From Bacillota bacterium (GTDB taxonomy: Bacteria > Bacillota > Clostridia > Oscillospirales > Acutalibacteraceae): a DNA stretch of 64,000 nt. The stretch covers positions 62,001 to 126,000 of the forward strand of contig JAETSA010000006.1 of assembly GCA_021769885.1 (NCBI GenBank). The letters run 5' to 3'. Position 1 is the first letter of the stretch. Each line of letters begins with the position of its first letter. Shown in pieces: positions 1,134-59,955 of this stretch. The translations under genes and the position numbers were made by a program. A model generated the notes under the pieces. It was not told the DNA's origin, did no database searches, and saw only the letters and a list, made by a program, of their open reading frames with translations.

Positions 1134-1760
1134 GGTGTATTTATTCATATTGTAGGGGCGCATCACGAAGCGCCCGAGCACGGTCGGATTTCGCACTCAC
1201 CCAACGGCGGAGCACAACATGTAGGGGCGGGTCTCCGTGCCCGCCCGAGGAAGCGTAAAATTCACACAAATCCTACGGAACGACACAGAGGTCGTTCCCT
1301 ACGCCTGTAGGGGTCGGCGTTCTCGACGACCCGAGGGCAGTCGAATTTTGCACAAACCTAACGGCGATACGCGAATCCTGTAGGGGCGATTCACGAATCG
1401 CCCGAGGACGGTCGGATTTCGCACAAACCCAACGGCGATACGCGAATCCTGTAGGGGCGCTTCACGAAGCGCCCGAGCACGGCTGGATTTTGCACAAACC
1501 CAACGGTGATACACAAACTCGTAGGGGCGGATGCCCTCATCCGCCCGAGCAGACGTAAAAATTTGCGCAAACAAAAACGGCGGGAGCAAGTTACGGCTAC
1601 GCCATTACCCTTTTGTCGCTTCGCGCCATTTTCCCTATTAGGGAAATCTTCCCCGCCCTACACCAGTAGGGGCGTGCATTGCGCGCCCGCCGAAGTCTGA
1701 TAAATTTACGGAACGACACAGAGGTCGTTCCCTACACCCGAAAAATTCGCACACCCCCGC
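1134..1760. repeat. GTAG-hairpin (REP-like) array 1
   Basis: A gene-free stretch of about 630 bp between two convergent genes, filled with hairpin modules. Each opens with GTAGGG followed by an inverted repeat, or is the mirror form ending CCCTAC. Stems change along the array: GCATC/GAAGC, GGGTCTCC/GCCC, GAACGAC/GTCGTTC, GGGTCG/CGACCC, CGATTC/GAATCG, CGCTTC/GAAGCG, GGATG/CATCC. Linkers are near constant, of the type CGAGCACGGTCGGATTT then CACAAACCCAACGG. A 155-bp composite of three modules (1151-1305) recurs at 43564. A 61-bp nested cassette lies at 1590-1650. Open frames through the array are by-products of the repeats. Confidence 0.9.
1590..1650 (+). repeat. 61-bp nested hairpin cassette, copy a
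   Basis: Runs from GTTACGGCTACGCC to GGGAAATCTT and contains the hairpins TGTCGCTTCGCG(C/A)CA and TTCCCTA/TAGGGAA. It interrupts a GCGGGAGCAAG...CCCGCCCTAC module; the empty form of that module is at about 43998-44022. Three other copies have exactly the same length. Confidence 0.8.
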
Positions 1761-12937: not shown

Positions 12938-13196
12938 AAACGGACAGCGAGCCCGGGCTGTCCCTACGGTGTGCGAAACAACGTACCACTTCGTAGGGGG
13001 CGACGACCTCGGCGCCCCGAGCACGGTCGGATTTTGCACAACCCCAACGGCGATACGCAAACCCTGTAGGGGCGATTCATAGTCGGATTTTGCAAAGCCC
13101 AACGTGATACGCACCCCGTAGGAGCGAACTGTGTTCGCCCGCGAAAACAGATGAAACTTCACGGAACGACACTGGGGTCGTTCCCTACACGGCGTC
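12938..13196. repeat. GTAG-hairpin (REP-like) array 3
   Basis: Lies between convergent genes. Modules: GGACAGCGAGCCCGGGCTGTCC with CCTAC (mirror form), GTAGGGGGCGACGACCTCGGCGCCCC, a truncated GTAGGGGCGATTCAT that has lost its right arm, GTAGGAGCGAACTGTGTTCGCCC and GGAACGACACTGGGGTCGTTCCCTAC. Linkers are the same as in the other arrays. Confidence 0.88.
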
Positions 13197-25568: not shown

Positions 25569-25852
25569 AGAAACTCCGGAACTTTGTCCTTTTTCGCCAG
25601 CGGTTCGAAAGGACGTGCAACTCTGTAGGGGGCGACGACTCGGCGCCCCACCGAAATCTGCGCAAATAAAAAACGGCGCGAGCAAGCCCGCGCCCTACAC
25701 CTATGCCAATCGTAGGGGCGGATGCCCACAGAAGGCTGATGAAATCTTTCGGAACAACACAGAGGTTGTTCCCTACACCCGTAGGGGCGATTCACGAATC
25801 GCCCGAGCAAGTCCCGGTTTCGCACAAACCCAACGGTAGAGCACCAACCCTT

Positions 25853-25951
25853 GTAGGGGCGGGGTGCGGGTCTCCGGTGGAGACCTCTGCATACGGAAGT
25901 ATGCAGAAGCACCGACCGAGCCGGCAGGTGAGACCTTCCACGCCCGCCCGA
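25853..25951 (+). repeat. 99-bp nested hairpin module, copy 1
   Basis: Outer module GTAGGGGCGGG...CCACGCCCGCCCGAG with about 70 bp inserted in its loop. The insert holds two further hairpins, GGTCTCCGGTGGAGACC and CTGCATACGGAAGTATGCAG. A copy with few differences and the same length is at 34034-34132; the empty form occurs at 36513 and 43793. Confidence 0.8.
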
Positions 25952-25989
25952 GCACGGTTGGATTATACACAACCCAACGGCGGGGGCAA

Positions 25990-26050
25990 GTTACGGCTAC
26001 GCCATTACCCTTTTGTCGCTTCGCGACATTTTCCCTAATAGGGAAATCTT
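25990..26050 (+). repeat. 61-bp nested hairpin cassette, copy b
   Basis: From GTTACGGCTACGCC to GGGAAATCTT, inside a GCGGGGGCAAG...CCCGCCCTAC module. Same length and nearly the same sequence as the copies at 1590, 33913 (inverted) and 36354. Confidence 0.8.
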
Positions 26051-26244
26051 CCCCGCCCTACCGATTGTTCAATTTACCCTATGCTATGTGAGATTCTTCG
26101 CCTGCGGCTCAGAATGACGGGATTTTGCAATCCGTAGGGGCGAACTGCGTTCGCCCGCGGACGGACGTGACGTCTGTCCCTACGCGTTCAAAATGACAGA
26201 ATTGCAAAAATTGCAGGGGCAATTGCACGCACCCCGTGAAAATC

Positions 26245-30801: not shown

Positions 30802-30900
30802 TCGTAGGGGCGAACTGTGTTCGCCCGCCGAAATTTCACCGCCGTAGGGGCGGATGCCTTCATCCGCCCGTGCTCGGGCTACGCGCAATCGCTCCTACTA
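30802..30900. repeat. GTAG-hairpin (REP-like) array 5 (short)
   Basis: Three modules: GTAGGGGCGAACTGTGTTCGCCC, GTAGGGGCGGATGCCTTCATCC and a mirror form GTGCTCGGGCTACGCGCAATCG...CTAC. It lies between two co-directional genes, after the rplS terminator. Confidence 0.85.
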
Positions 30901-33803: not shown

Positions 33804-33912
33804 ATAGACCCCACCTCAACGGTGAATCGCAACCTGTAGGGGACAACCGATGACGCGTTTCGCAAAATCCACACAACCTAACGGCGATACGCAAACTTCG
33901 TAGGGGTCGGCG

Positions 33913-33973
33913 AAGATTCCCCTGATAGGGGAAATGTCGCGAAGCGACAAAAGGGTGATGGCGAAGCCGTAAC
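33913..33973 (-). repeat. 61-bp nested hairpin cassette, copy c (inverted)
   Basis: Runs AAGATTCCCCTGATAGGGG to GGCGAAGCCGTAAC on the plus strand, the reverse complement of the other three copies. It sits in the loop of GGGTCGGCG...CGACGACCC; the empty version of this module is at about 1310-1333. Confidence 0.82.
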
Positions 33974-34033
33974 CTCGACGACCCGAGAAAAGTTCGATTT
34001 TGCAAAAAAAGCCAACGGCGGCACGCAAACTCC

Positions 34034-34132
34034 GTAGGGGCGGGGTGCGGGTCTCCGGTGGAGACCTCTGCATACGGAAGTATGCAGAAGCACCGACCGA
34101 GCCGGCAGGCGAGACATTCCACGCCCGCCCGA
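34034..34132 (+). repeat. 99-bp nested hairpin module, copy 2
   Basis: Near-identical to the module at 25853-25951 (differences such as GCAGGCGAGACATT against GCAGGTGAGACCTT). The outer hairpin, two inner hairpins and length are all kept. Confidence 0.8.
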
Positions 34133-34622
34133 GCGAGGTGGTTTATATAGCACCCACGGCGAATCGCAACCTGTAGGGGCGCTTCACGAAGCGCCCACAA
34201 AAATCAGCACAACCCAATGGTGGTGTGCAACCCCGTAGGGGCGGGTTTCTACGCCCGCCCGAGCATGGTCGGATTTTGCACAAACCGAACGGTGAAACGC
34301 AACCCGTAGGTGCGAACTATAATGCCTCCCTTGTGAAAGGGAAGTGGCACGGCGTAGCCGTGACGGAGGGATTCTGCGCCTGAAAACGGACAGCCACAAG
34401 GGCTGTCCCTACGGTGATGCACGGACGGACAAGGATGTCCGTCCCTACGCGCAAATCCAATTCACGCTGTGCGATATGAGGTTCTGCGGCGGGAGCAAGT
34501 TTTCATCCTACCACGCTTAGAATGACAGGTTGTACAACCCCGTAGGGGCACGCATCGCGCGCCTGCGGAATGGGCATTGCCCATTCCCTACGAATTATCT
34601 ATTACACCGAACGGAGAAACAT

Positions 34623-35007: not shown

Positions 35008-35048
35008 CCCCCTGCAATCCAAAAGATTGCAGGGGGACAGCGTTTTTT
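35008..35048 (+). terminator. Intrinsic terminator of the DUF3795 gene
   Basis: Stem CCCCCTGCAATC/GATTGCAGGGGG with a CAAAA loop, then ACAGCGTTTTTTT. Confidence 0.88.
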
Positions 35049-35051
35049 TCA

Positions 35052-35240
35052 TCCCCGCCCGACCGCACACGGCAAATAGTAACCTGCAAATAAGCAGGTG
35101 GGTGTCTATCCTTGGGTTTAGTGCTCCCAACGTCCGCAGAAACTGCGGGAGGTCTGCACACCGCCTCGGAAATCCGACTCCCGAATAAAACGTGTTGGGT
35201 TAATATTGTACCGTGCGTTTCTCGCATCGGGCAGGTGGTT
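35052..35240 (-). ncRNA. ssrS: 6S RNA (RNA polymerase regulator)
   Basis: On the minus strand about 185 nt fold as a long rod. The 5' part GCCCGATGCG and 3' part GTGCGGTCGGGC close the terminal stem. The centre holds a large bulge between GGTGTGCAGACCTCC and GTTGGGAGCAC. The 3' half contains ACACCCACCTGC, a short hairpin and GCAGGTTAC, which corresponds in order and spacing to the ACAC...CACC-hairpin-GGUUAC segment of Escherichia coli 6S RNA. 6S RNA mimics an open promoter and sequesters housekeeping RNA polymerase in stationary phase. It lies downstream of the DUF1292 gene on the same strand. Ends are approximate and no own promoter is evident. Confidence 0.68.
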
Positions 35241-36177: not shown

Positions 36178-36615
36178 CCAATGAACCTCGTAGGGGCGAA
36201 CTGTGTTCGTCTGCAAAATTCGTACAACCCAACGGTGATGCACAATCCTGTAGGGGCGGATGCCATCATCTGCCCGAACACGGTCGGATTTTGCACAAAC
36301 CCAACGGTGAAACACAATTCCCGTAGGGGCGCTTCACGAAGCGCCCCTACGGGGTTACGGCTATGCCATTATCCTTTTGTCGCTTCGCGACATTTTCCCT
36401 AATAGGGAAATCTTCGTCTGTCCCTACGCGCGAATCAAATTCACATCATTTTTTTAAAGCGGACAGCCGCGAGGGCTGTCCCTACGATGTGCAAAACAAC
36501 GGTAAAATTGTAGGGGCGGGTTTCCACGCCCGCCCGCGCAAAGCTGGATTTTAACACCAATCCAATGGCGATACAGTCTGTAGGGGCGCTTCACGAAGCG
36601 CCCGAGCACCTCGAA
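36178..36615. repeat. GTAG-hairpin (REP-like) array 7
   Basis: Modules in order: GTAGGGGCGAACTGTGTTCG, GTAGGGGCGGATGCCATCATC, GTAGGGGCGCTTCACGAAGCGCC with CTAC (both ends marked), the 61-bp cassette at 36354-36414, GGACAGCCGCGAGGGCTGTCC with CTAC, GTAGGGGCGGGTTTCCACGCC and GTAGGGGCGCTTCACGAAGC. It separates the orphan transcript from the convergent XRE regulator. Confidence 0.9.
36354..36414 (+). repeat. 61-bp nested hairpin cassette, copy d
   Basis: GTTACGGCTATGCCATTATCC to GGGAAATCTT, between a CTACGGG module end and a GTCTGTCCCTAC module end. Three substitutions against the other copies; identical length. Confidence 0.8.
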
Positions 36616-38046: not shown

Positions 38047-38055
38047 CATCTAAAT

Positions 38056-38203
38056 CCGTCCTTGCGGACGGGATAAATCCGCCTGCGGCGGATGAAATCA
38101 CTTCGTGATGAAATCCGACTTCGTCGGGAATGGGGCGGATTTAATTTCATCTGCGAAGCAGATTTCATCCGTGTAATACACGGATTTCATCACGCTCTGC
38201 GCG
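38056..38203. repeat. Array of short-loop hairpins ahead of the four-helix-bundle gene
   Basis: At least six small hairpins in 150 bp: CCGTCCttgcGGACGG, TCCGCCtgcGGCGGA, ATCACttcGTGAT, CCGACttcGTCGG, ATCTGCgaaGCAGAT, CCGTGTaatACACGG. They are joined by repeats of GATTTCATC or its complement GATGAAATC. Stems differ; loops are three or four bases. The array ends at the promoter of the gene at 38260. Confidence 0.8.
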
Positions 38204-43426: not shown

Positions 43427-44140
43427 CGTAGGGAACGACCTCTGTGTCGTTCCGAAAAATTTTCGCAACCAAACGGTGAAGCGCAACCCGTAGGGGCGAA
43501 CTGTGTTCGCCCGCGGACAGCGTGCCCGGGCTGTCCCTACGATGTGCAAAGCAACGTACAACCTGTAGGGGCGATTCACGAATCGCCCGAGCACGGTCGG
43601 ATTTCGCACTCACCCAACGGCGGAGCACAACATGTAGGGGCGGGTCTCCGTGCCCGCCCGAGGAAGCGTGAAATTCACACAAATCCTACGGAACGACACA
43701 GAGGTCGTTCCCTACGCCTGTAGGGGCGATTCACGAATCGCCCGAGCACGGTCGGATTTCGCACTCACCCAACGGCGGAGCACAACATGTAGGGGCGGGT
43801 TTCCACGCCCGCCCGAGGAAGCGTAAAATTCACACAAATCCTACGGAACGACACAGAGGTCGTTCCCTACGCCTGTAGGGGCGCTTCACGAAGCGCCCGA
43901 GCACGGCTGGATTTTGCACAAACCCAACGGTGAACCACTCCGTAGGGGCGGGTTTCCACGCCCGCCCGAGCAAAGTCAGATTTCGCACAAACCGAACGGC
44001 GGGAGCAAGCTCCCGCCCTACGCCCTCGTAGAAGCACGAACAACCTTGCGGAACGACACTGGGATCGTCCCCTACGATTTATAAATCAAATTTACATTAC
44101 GCTGAATTTCACGGAACAACACAGAGGTTGTTCCCTACAA
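43427..44140. repeat. GTAG-hairpin (REP-like) array 8 with 155-bp tandem units
   Basis: About 710 bp with no gene, between two minus-strand genes. After GTAGGGAACGACCTCTGTGTC, GTAGGGGCGAACTGTGTTCG and GGACAGCGTGCCCGGGCTGTCC come units of exactly 155 bp (43564-43718, 43719-43873). Each is made of CGATTC/GAATCG, GGGTCTCC or GGGTTTCC/GCCC and GAACGAC/GTCGTTC hairpins with their linkers; a partial third unit begins at 43874 with a swapped CGCTTC/GAAGCG stem. The same composite, same length, is at 1151-1305. The empty GCGGGAGCAAGCTCCCGC module is near 43998. Confidence 0.92.
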
Positions 44141-59729: not shown

Positions 59730-59955
59730 TGACGGCGAGGCAAAACGTCGAAGGGAACGACCGAAGACGCGTTCCGCAAAATCCCACAAACCCAACGGTT
59801 GCCCACCAATCGTAGGGGCGATTCACGAATCGCCCGGGCAAGGTTGGATTTTGCAAAAACCAAATGGCGGGCGTGGAAGCCTGCCACCACGTGTGTATCC
59901 AATTTACATTGCTCTATGTGAGATTCTTCGCTTCGCTCAGAATGACAAATTTGTA
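59730..59955. repeat. GTAG-hairpin (REP-like) array 9
   Basis: A decayed module (GGGAACGACCGAAGACGCGTTCC), GTAGGGGCGATTCACGAATCGCC, a partly lost GCGGGCGTGGAAGCCTGCC and the GTGAGATTCTTCGCTTCGCTC...AGAATGACA motif. It separates two co-directional genes and, with 59663-60035, accounts for the gap between them. Confidence 0.82.

Follow-up and report, generated by a model that had tools for sequence, protein, structure and literature searches.

Introduction

As far as the available text of these papers goes, GTAG REPs and BIMEs consist of a GTAG foot and a short palindrome, are intergenic, lie mostly 3' of genes and are clustered (Di Nocera et al. 2013, PMC3733652; Nunvar et al. 2010, PMC2817692), and the REPs flanking orthologous RAYT genes change yet still pair (PMC3733652; PMC2817692). 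Heterodimers prevail over homodimers in most REP families according to the parts available of Di Nocera et al. (2013, PMC3733652), in which protection from clearance is the suggested reason. The terms Firmicutes and Clostridi are absent from the texts of PMC3733652 and PMC2817692. REPINs, in the excerpted account of Bertels and Rainey (2011, PMC3116915), are inverted REP pairs that are thought to be mobilized in trans, and tandem arrays are oriented by chromosome side. The available sections of Quentin et al. (2018, PMC6006769) describe IS200/IS605 enzymes as acting on the lagging-strand template and report in-frame REPs in RAYT genes, namely those of TnpA-REP subclass 2.4, in which the insertions generally lie between HuH and Y and probably have little impact. 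The genes described here bear on how RAYTs choose REP hairpins and how new pairings arise.

The hairpin modules analyzed here share the GTAG foot, the palindrome and the clustering with the published GTAG REP families and BIMEs. In the latter, so far as the excerpts describe them, RAYT genes are flanked by REPs, whereas here the hairpins lie within the gene as a rule. The closest published account appears to be that of the subclass 2.4 tnpAREP genes with in-frame REPs: the likeness, within the portion of that paper available, extends to the in-frame REPs, a variable region after the HUH strand, the motif NH[IFV]H, from which some of our proteins depart, and a REP family of its own for each tnpAREP. 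In contrast to subclass 2.4, our genes have hairpins at two fixed positions, before and after HUH, in inverted orientation; the stems of the two are matched and mostly change together, and the gene set is drawn mostly from Clostridia. A small insertion at alpha-B, which that paper also describes, may correspond to hp1, the hairpin before HUH. A matched inverted pair that brackets HUH and changes in concert was not found in the literature searched, which was available in part, and the pair appears to be new.

Arrays of GTAGGG hairpins

The window is the whole stretch of DNA that was analyzed, 64,000 nucleotides (C18:62001-126000) within a genome of 2.32 Mb in 38 contigs. It has 71 GTAGGG sites, and a strong hairpin follows at 45 of them. 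The preliminary description had reported GTAGGG hairpins at nine intergenic places, regarded as nine arrays with at least ten stem sequences. The hairpin listing of the window has hairpins at all nine places and 20 different 8-nt arms; eight places hold several hairpins, and the ninth is one strong hairpin and hardly an array. The elements are as follows (window positions; arrays are given without strand):

1152-1735, array of nine GTAGGG hairpins between convergent ORFs
1579-1661, minus strand, E2-capped hairpin of the GGCGGG..CCCGCC kind with the cap in its loop
5239-5538, array of five hairpins, two hetero-stem inverted pairs among them
12942-13188, array of three hairpins
25625-26183, array of 4+2 hairpins, between which lie two capped ones
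25853-25949, E3-capped hairpin inside the 25625-26183 array
25979-26061, E2-capped hairpin inside the 25625-26183 array
30804-30869, plus strand, two hairpins in tandem
33836-34591, array at the site of the preliminary description: five plain GTAGGG hairpins, two capped ones and several decayed modules
33900-33984, plus strand, hairpin with stem GGGTCGGCG/CGACGACCC and a 60-nt E2 cap in its loop
34034-34130, plus strand, hairpin with stem GGGCGGG/CCCGCCC and an E3 cap in its loop
34173 and 34235, plus strand, plain GTAGGG hairpins of the 33836-34591 array
34388-34412, 34423-34448 and 34567-34591, minus strand, plain GTAGGG hairpins of the same array
35048-35240, minus strand, 6S RNA (Rfam)
36190-36603, array of six hairpins
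38047-38119, plus strand, Gut-1 RNA (Rfam)
43428-44138, array of 14 hairpins, the longest of the 864-kb sample
59812-59835, plus strand, lone hairpin

A described RNA family was rejected as the identity of the arrays: the Rfam matches in the window are two tRNAs, Gut-1 and 6S, and none overlaps any array.

To place these arrays in their genome, we used a sample of 864 kb made up of the window and 40 stretches from the same genome. The 10-mer CGTAGGGGCG occurs in 529 genome copies compared with 5 for its reversed control. In the sample, a hairpin score of at least 8 is reached at 354 of 1216 GTAGG sites versus 7 after shuffling, and a hairpin follows 445 of the 821 GTAGGG sites when no selection for pairing is made; 29 other hexamers of the same composition, pooled, have a hairpin at 478 of 6180 sites, 276 of them being the overlapping TAGGGG. 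The copy number of CGTAGGGGCG and the shuffled-site and hexamer controls rule out a chance origin. CGTAGGGGCG is unusable as a marker in many relatives because its reversed control is equally frequent there (for example G019, 35 versus 32).

For stem pairing, hairpins scoring below 6 were dropped, as were non-GTAGGG starts (551 to 527) and three overlapping double calls (527 to 524). Pairing at stem positions 3 to 8 is seen in 436 to 508 of the resulting 524 hairpins versus shuffled maxima of 190 to 287, counts that overstate covariation because the hairpins were chosen for pairing; positions 1 and 2 are almost invariant. The stems of this genome covary, in agreement with the earlier statement that they vary while keeping both arms complementary. 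There are 48 different well-paired arms, 25 of which have at least three copies, and the mixing of these 25 recurrent arms in the arrays of one genome is unlike the published GTAG REP families as the available texts describe them. With GTAG immediately 5' of a short palindrome and many intergenic copies, both as expected of REP elements, the assignment of the modules to the GTAG-type REP/BIME elements is strongly supported.

Y1 genes of this genome

A Pfam Y1_Tnp search of the genome gave four matches, two of them above the cut-off, and a three-sequence profile search gave seven Y1 gene copies in nine pieces. All seven contain GTAGGG hairpins, and six have an inverted hairpin pair around the HUH codons, in which hp1 is on the sense strand 5' of these codons and hp2 on the opposite strand 3' of them. 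Hairpins within one gene are identical or nearly so, and the stem differs from gene to gene:

L013, arm GGCGGGGG
L014, arm GGGGCGAC
L016, arm GGGCGCGC; hp2 GGGCGTGC
L017, arm GGACGGAC
L018, hp2 arm GGGACGAT; hp1 arm GGGGCGAT with an E3 cap in the loop
L019, arm GGGCGAAC; hp2 shorter by one base at the foot

Two of the copies are broken, L018 being interrupted by stops and L019 being matched in two frames. In L015 (L002), hp2 is inside the gene, a same-stem hairpin lies 5' of the ORF and another lies in the last codons. The preliminary description had proposed a link to RAYT-type Y1 enzymes, to be checked by a search for a Y1 gene flanked by these hairpins. L002/L015 is such a gene, and the link holds for this genome in that its Y1 copies all carry the hairpins, usually within the gene and in L002 also at its ends. 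Of the two observations that the preliminary description named as refuting, absence of a Y1 transposase and stems that do not covary, neither applies to this genome. In the 864-kb sample, each of the seven Y1 arms is present in 4 to 70 copies, the sampled gene hairpins counted in, and an exact match to one of the seven stems is found for 194 of the 524 hairpins.

Pfam PF01797 (Y1_Tnp) is found in all five Y1 proteins searched, in three above the cut-off. The RAYT model NF047646 is the best NCBIfam match of the five, with L017 above its cut-off (81.3 bits versus 80) and the other four at 48.4 to 69.2 bits. The best match in both sequence and fold is E. coli TnpArep, 4er8, and the proteins have the HUH motif, the catalytic Tyr motif and the Y1 fold that characterize RAYT/TnpA-REP. 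Compared with the subclass 2.4 motifs NH[IFV]H, WQ and YIxNNP, variants occur: the HUH motif of L017 starts with DH, and the P of the Y motif is absent in two of three aligned proteins. When three Y1 proteins of this genome were aligned, the first had 34% and 37% identity with the other two. Among the best 80 of 356 confirmed relatives, the closest Y1 match with a name comes from Ruminococcaceae bacterium UBA7212, and as judged from this match the organism lies outside the proteobacteria. In total, the RAYT association of the hairpins is strongly supported.

Combining these data, we suggest that the modules are quite probably GTAG-type REP hairpins in BIME-like mosaics that are spread by several co-resident RAYT (TnpA-REP, Y1/HUH) enzymes. 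In this model, (i) each enzyme would recognize GTAG together with its own hairpin where the lagging-strand template is single-stranded, (ii) it would cut beside the hairpin and move or copy hairpins into gaps 3' of genes, (iii) the in-gene pair would stand in for the REPs that flank the gene in a classical REPtron and would change with the specificity of the enzyme, and (iv) arrays would then grow from stems of several families that have a linker of about 45 nt in common. The movement, its single-strand route and the cause of stem mixing are what we infer from these patterns.

Stem mixing and array composition

We distinguish class A hairpins (GTAGGGG or GTAGGGT) and class B hairpins (GTAGGGA or GTAGGGC); tandem class A hairpins have a median gap of 46 nt. 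The same arm is shared by 9% of hairpin pairs with a downstream linker identity below 40%, by 15% at 85-92.5% and by 43% above 92.5%. Where both flanks are at least 85% identical, 7 of 10 pairs share their stem, and of two such pairs printed as differing one looks like the same stem in shifted register. The earlier suggestion of stem exchange with conserved linkers therefore stands in part: one linker hardly predicts the stem, but true exchange is weakly shown because pairs with both flanks alike mostly share it, and cassette shuffling by recombination or single-strand transposition, then proposed as the cause, is accordingly a putative one. The linker-stem pattern fits joints at hairpins better than stem exchange between fixed linkers.

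Joints at hairpins are part of an explanation in which stems and linkers are mixed without a transposase, by recombination between arrays and template-switch correction of arms. The low predictive value of the downstream linker (15% at 85-92.5% versus 9% below 40%) agrees with it, as does the sharing of stems between pairs with both flanks alike, which one-sided joints would give, and so does a case in the relative G024, in which six copies of one element keep a near-identical inter-hairpin spacer, with one substitution, and the 3' stem flips with compensation from GAGC/GCTC to GACC/GGTC. Such recombination leaves unexplained that stems match the in-gene Y1 pairs and that the same arms recur in other species, and we regard mixing without a transposase as possible but rather doubtful.

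Arrays tend to be composed of different stems. Array mates have the same arm in 41 of 1063 pairs versus 67.5 expected (0 of 1000 permutations as low), and adjacent hairpins in 9 of 375 versus 21.0 expected; a neighbor effect beyond the array-wide avoidance of repeated stems was not significant in a within-array shuffle. Among the 120 head-out pairs of this genome, two share an arm and 118 are of two different stems. Inverted pairs and tandem arrays with a preferred orientation are shared with REPINs, whereas the same-stem inverted pair that is the replicative unit of REPINs, according to the accessible part of the published account, is not the rule in this genome. Same-stem inverted pairs are present at loci of the relatives G031 and G004 (L197-L199, L208).

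At L190-L193, L197-L199 and L202 (G024, G031, G004), inverted hairpin pairs lie inside an apparent outer inverted repeat resembling AAATTTGAGTTTGTCGGG. Read by eye, this repeat looks like a MITE-like scaffold with stems that differ by species.

Gene context and strand orientation

By crude ORF calls, five of the nine places in the window are between convergent and four between co-directional ORFs, as reported before. The accompanying claim that none is between divergent genes fails genome-wide: among 149 hairpin groups, of which 26 consist of one hairpin, 38 are convergent, 73 co-directional and 16 divergent, and 22 are in an ORF or at an end. Convergent placement is enriched, with 38 of the 127 placed groups versus 115 of 747 ORF pairs. 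This enrichment and the covariation of the stems would suit hairpins that are primarily RNA elements (terminators or mRNA 3'-end stabilizers) maintained 3' of genes by selection, with a Y1 link that is historical.

The orientation of the hairpins, on the other hand, tracks the replication strand. The leading strand was assigned by the sign of GC skew per contig, which is a proxy only and switches locally in C26. The lagging-strand template corresponds in sequence to the G-rich strand. In class A, GTAG is on the G-rich strand in 243 of 332 hairpins (p 1e-17) and, counted per group, in 99 of 128; class B has the opposite bias, with 53 of 192 (p 4e-10). The class A bias persists between convergent genes (54 of 79) and beside lagging-strand genes (42 of 63), the latter being weak in another count (28 versus 16). 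Given this dependence on the replication strand, and that GTAG feet and stem-matched Y1 genes are needless for an RNA role, we consider a primary RNA function unlikely; an RNA role and the REP/RAYT role may coexist.

Matched hairpin pairs in a wider set of Y1 genes

A profile search of genome contigs gave 356 confirmed Y1 relatives. The best 80 of these 356, together with further search loci and those of our own genome, made up 117 loci, from which six without the HUH pattern were left out (gene criterion, motif MP[ND]HxH), to give 105 distinct Y1 genes, mostly from Clostridia. At least one hairpin on each side is found in 80 of the 105, a 5' hairpin only in 7, a 3' hairpin only in 13 and none in 5, which makes 25 genes with one side or both bare of hairpins; both internal hairpins are in the expected windows in 66, and 39 are without the full internal pair. 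One open frame runs through hp1, HUH and hp2 in 65 of the 66, and the peptides encoded by the hairpins differ between stems.

After removal of cores at least 80% identical (5 of the 66 gene pairs dropped), 61 non-redundant genes were left. The 8-nt arms of hp1 and hp2 are identical in 40 of the 61, with 36 different arms, compared with a permuted mean of 2.0 and a maximum of 9 (10,000 permutations), and the within-gene arm identity is 7.38 of 8 versus a permuted mean of 4.78 and a maximum of 5.38 (10,000). Over gene pairs, which are not independent, the differences in hp1 and hp2 correlate with a rho of 0.80. For 85 gene pairs with cores that are 60-75% identical, both stems are shared in 9% and different in 79%, and one stem alone differs in 12%; in some of the mixed cases, L074 for example, the loop side is retained and the basal stem is different. 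In a subgroup of Y1 genes (L069, L086, L090, L101, L105), a CTAC-side hairpin after HUH is accompanied, 86 nt further downstream, by a GTAG hairpin whose stem is different; hp1 was looked for in these five and not found.

An alternative, which seems quite improbable to us, is that REPs inserted neutrally into these genes because surface loops tolerate them, and that they are uninformative on the working of the enzyme. In its favor, the hairpin-coded residues 40-48 and 99-107 of L055 fall in coil in the predicted fold (mean pLDDT 86.1), the available part of Quentin 2018 reads the subclass 2.4 insertions likewise and the reading phase of hp2 varies (49, 16 and 1 of 66). Against it, the hairpins occupy like positions in genes with a mean core identity of 51% at the nucleotide level, the phase of hp1 is the same in 62 of 66, the two stems mostly change together, the pairwise result points towards a joint change above chance, and independent neutral insertion is rejected because it would not give matched pairs. 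Because hp1 shares one phase in 62 of the 66 genes and hp2 in 49, at least the position of hp1 looks ancestral.

Returning to spread by RAYT enzymes, we propose tentatively, and as a reading that falls somewhat short of an even chance, that in this Y1 clade selection maintains, within the coding sequence of the transposase, a tag for the enzyme's own recognition, namely a matched inverted pair that brackets HUH and changes with specificity, and that the E2 cap invades hairpin loops. If this is true, the gene would be both the source of the enzyme and a reference copy of the hairpin, and the target hairpin could be read from the coding sequence. If the cognate hairpin is present twice in each gene of the clade, sequence would reveal natural pairs of enzyme and hairpin by the dozen, with stem-swapped partners as controls. 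These genes extend REP/RAYT biology in Clostridia, and the wildly varying peptides of these transposases are accounted for by DNA hairpins instead of protein function.

Dispersed copies of cognate and orphan stems

Dispersed hairpins within about 5 kb match the stem of the local Y1 gene in 35% of cases versus 11% with the Y1s swapped (swap maximum 31.8% of 5000); this comparison covers the named loci, 22 of 67 of which had dispersed hairpins, 72 hairpins in all. Across 36 same-genus genomes and part of the relatives' Y1 fragments, the three genomes that contain the cognate Y1 of GGGACGGCG have 30, 5 and 0 dispersed copies of this stem, versus five non-zero genomes of 33 without that Y1 (p 0.008). 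The excess of GGCGGGGGCT in cognate-Y1 genomes is not significant (p 0.086), and the cognate Y1 of GGACAGCCC is found in a single genome only. A putative pairing of enzyme and hairpin by stem is thus supported at the level of sequence, from the matched in-gene pairs and partly from copy numbers.

The association with Y1 genes is not strict, and orphan stems are common. GTAGGGACAGCCC has 64 copies in this genome, in which no cognate Y1 was found, and some genomes without a detected Y1 carry hairpins, such as G019 with 21 copies of one stem and no Y1 match at all. Six orphan arms that are abundant here (GGGCGATT, GGGCGGGT, GGGCGCTT, GGACAGCC, GGGCGGAT and GGGTCGGC) recur in other species within Y1 genes such as L044 and L099, L085 and L172, L108, L040, L094 and L035, in which the loops can differ. 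In the model of spread by co-resident RAYTs, stems without a Y1 here would be leftovers of lost enzymes.

Capped hairpins

Some GTAG hairpins, of many different stems, have one of two structured inserts in the loop: E2 (59-62 nt), a three-hairpin cap, or E3, which measures about 70-79 nt. The 864-kb sample holds 34 copies of E2 and 54-56 of E3. GTAGGG sites without a local hairpin have the complement of their arm 40-200 nt away in 61 of 294 cases (arm-swap control 14.1, maximum 27), and many of these 61 contain E2 or E3. Foot-anchored arms are paired at 7 or more of 8 positions around 26 of 34 E2 copies (shuffled mean 1.4) and 35 of 54 E3 copies (3.4), and strict 7-nt arms enclose 21 of 34 E2 and 27 of 56 E3 copies, versus 2 of 136 and 6 of 220 in the controls. 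In 21 of 29 cases, joining the flanks of E2 yields a hairpin that lies at most one edit away from an uncapped one in the same genome sample. Invasion of hairpin loops by the E2 cap would suggest that the hairpins are extruded in living cells.

IS1397 reportedly inserts into the REP loop. REP-targeting IS of the IS1397 type insert into REP palindromes, in the available part of the account by Tobes and Pareja (2006, PMC1525189), and in this they resemble the E2 and E3 caps; by comparison, the caps are short and structured, and too short for a transposase gene. In the relatives, many E2 copies are also in GTAG hairpins of other stems as judged by eye and without a count, the G001 and G002 copies shown being exceptions. 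Across 59 genomes including our own, E3 is present in 18 and E2 in 14.
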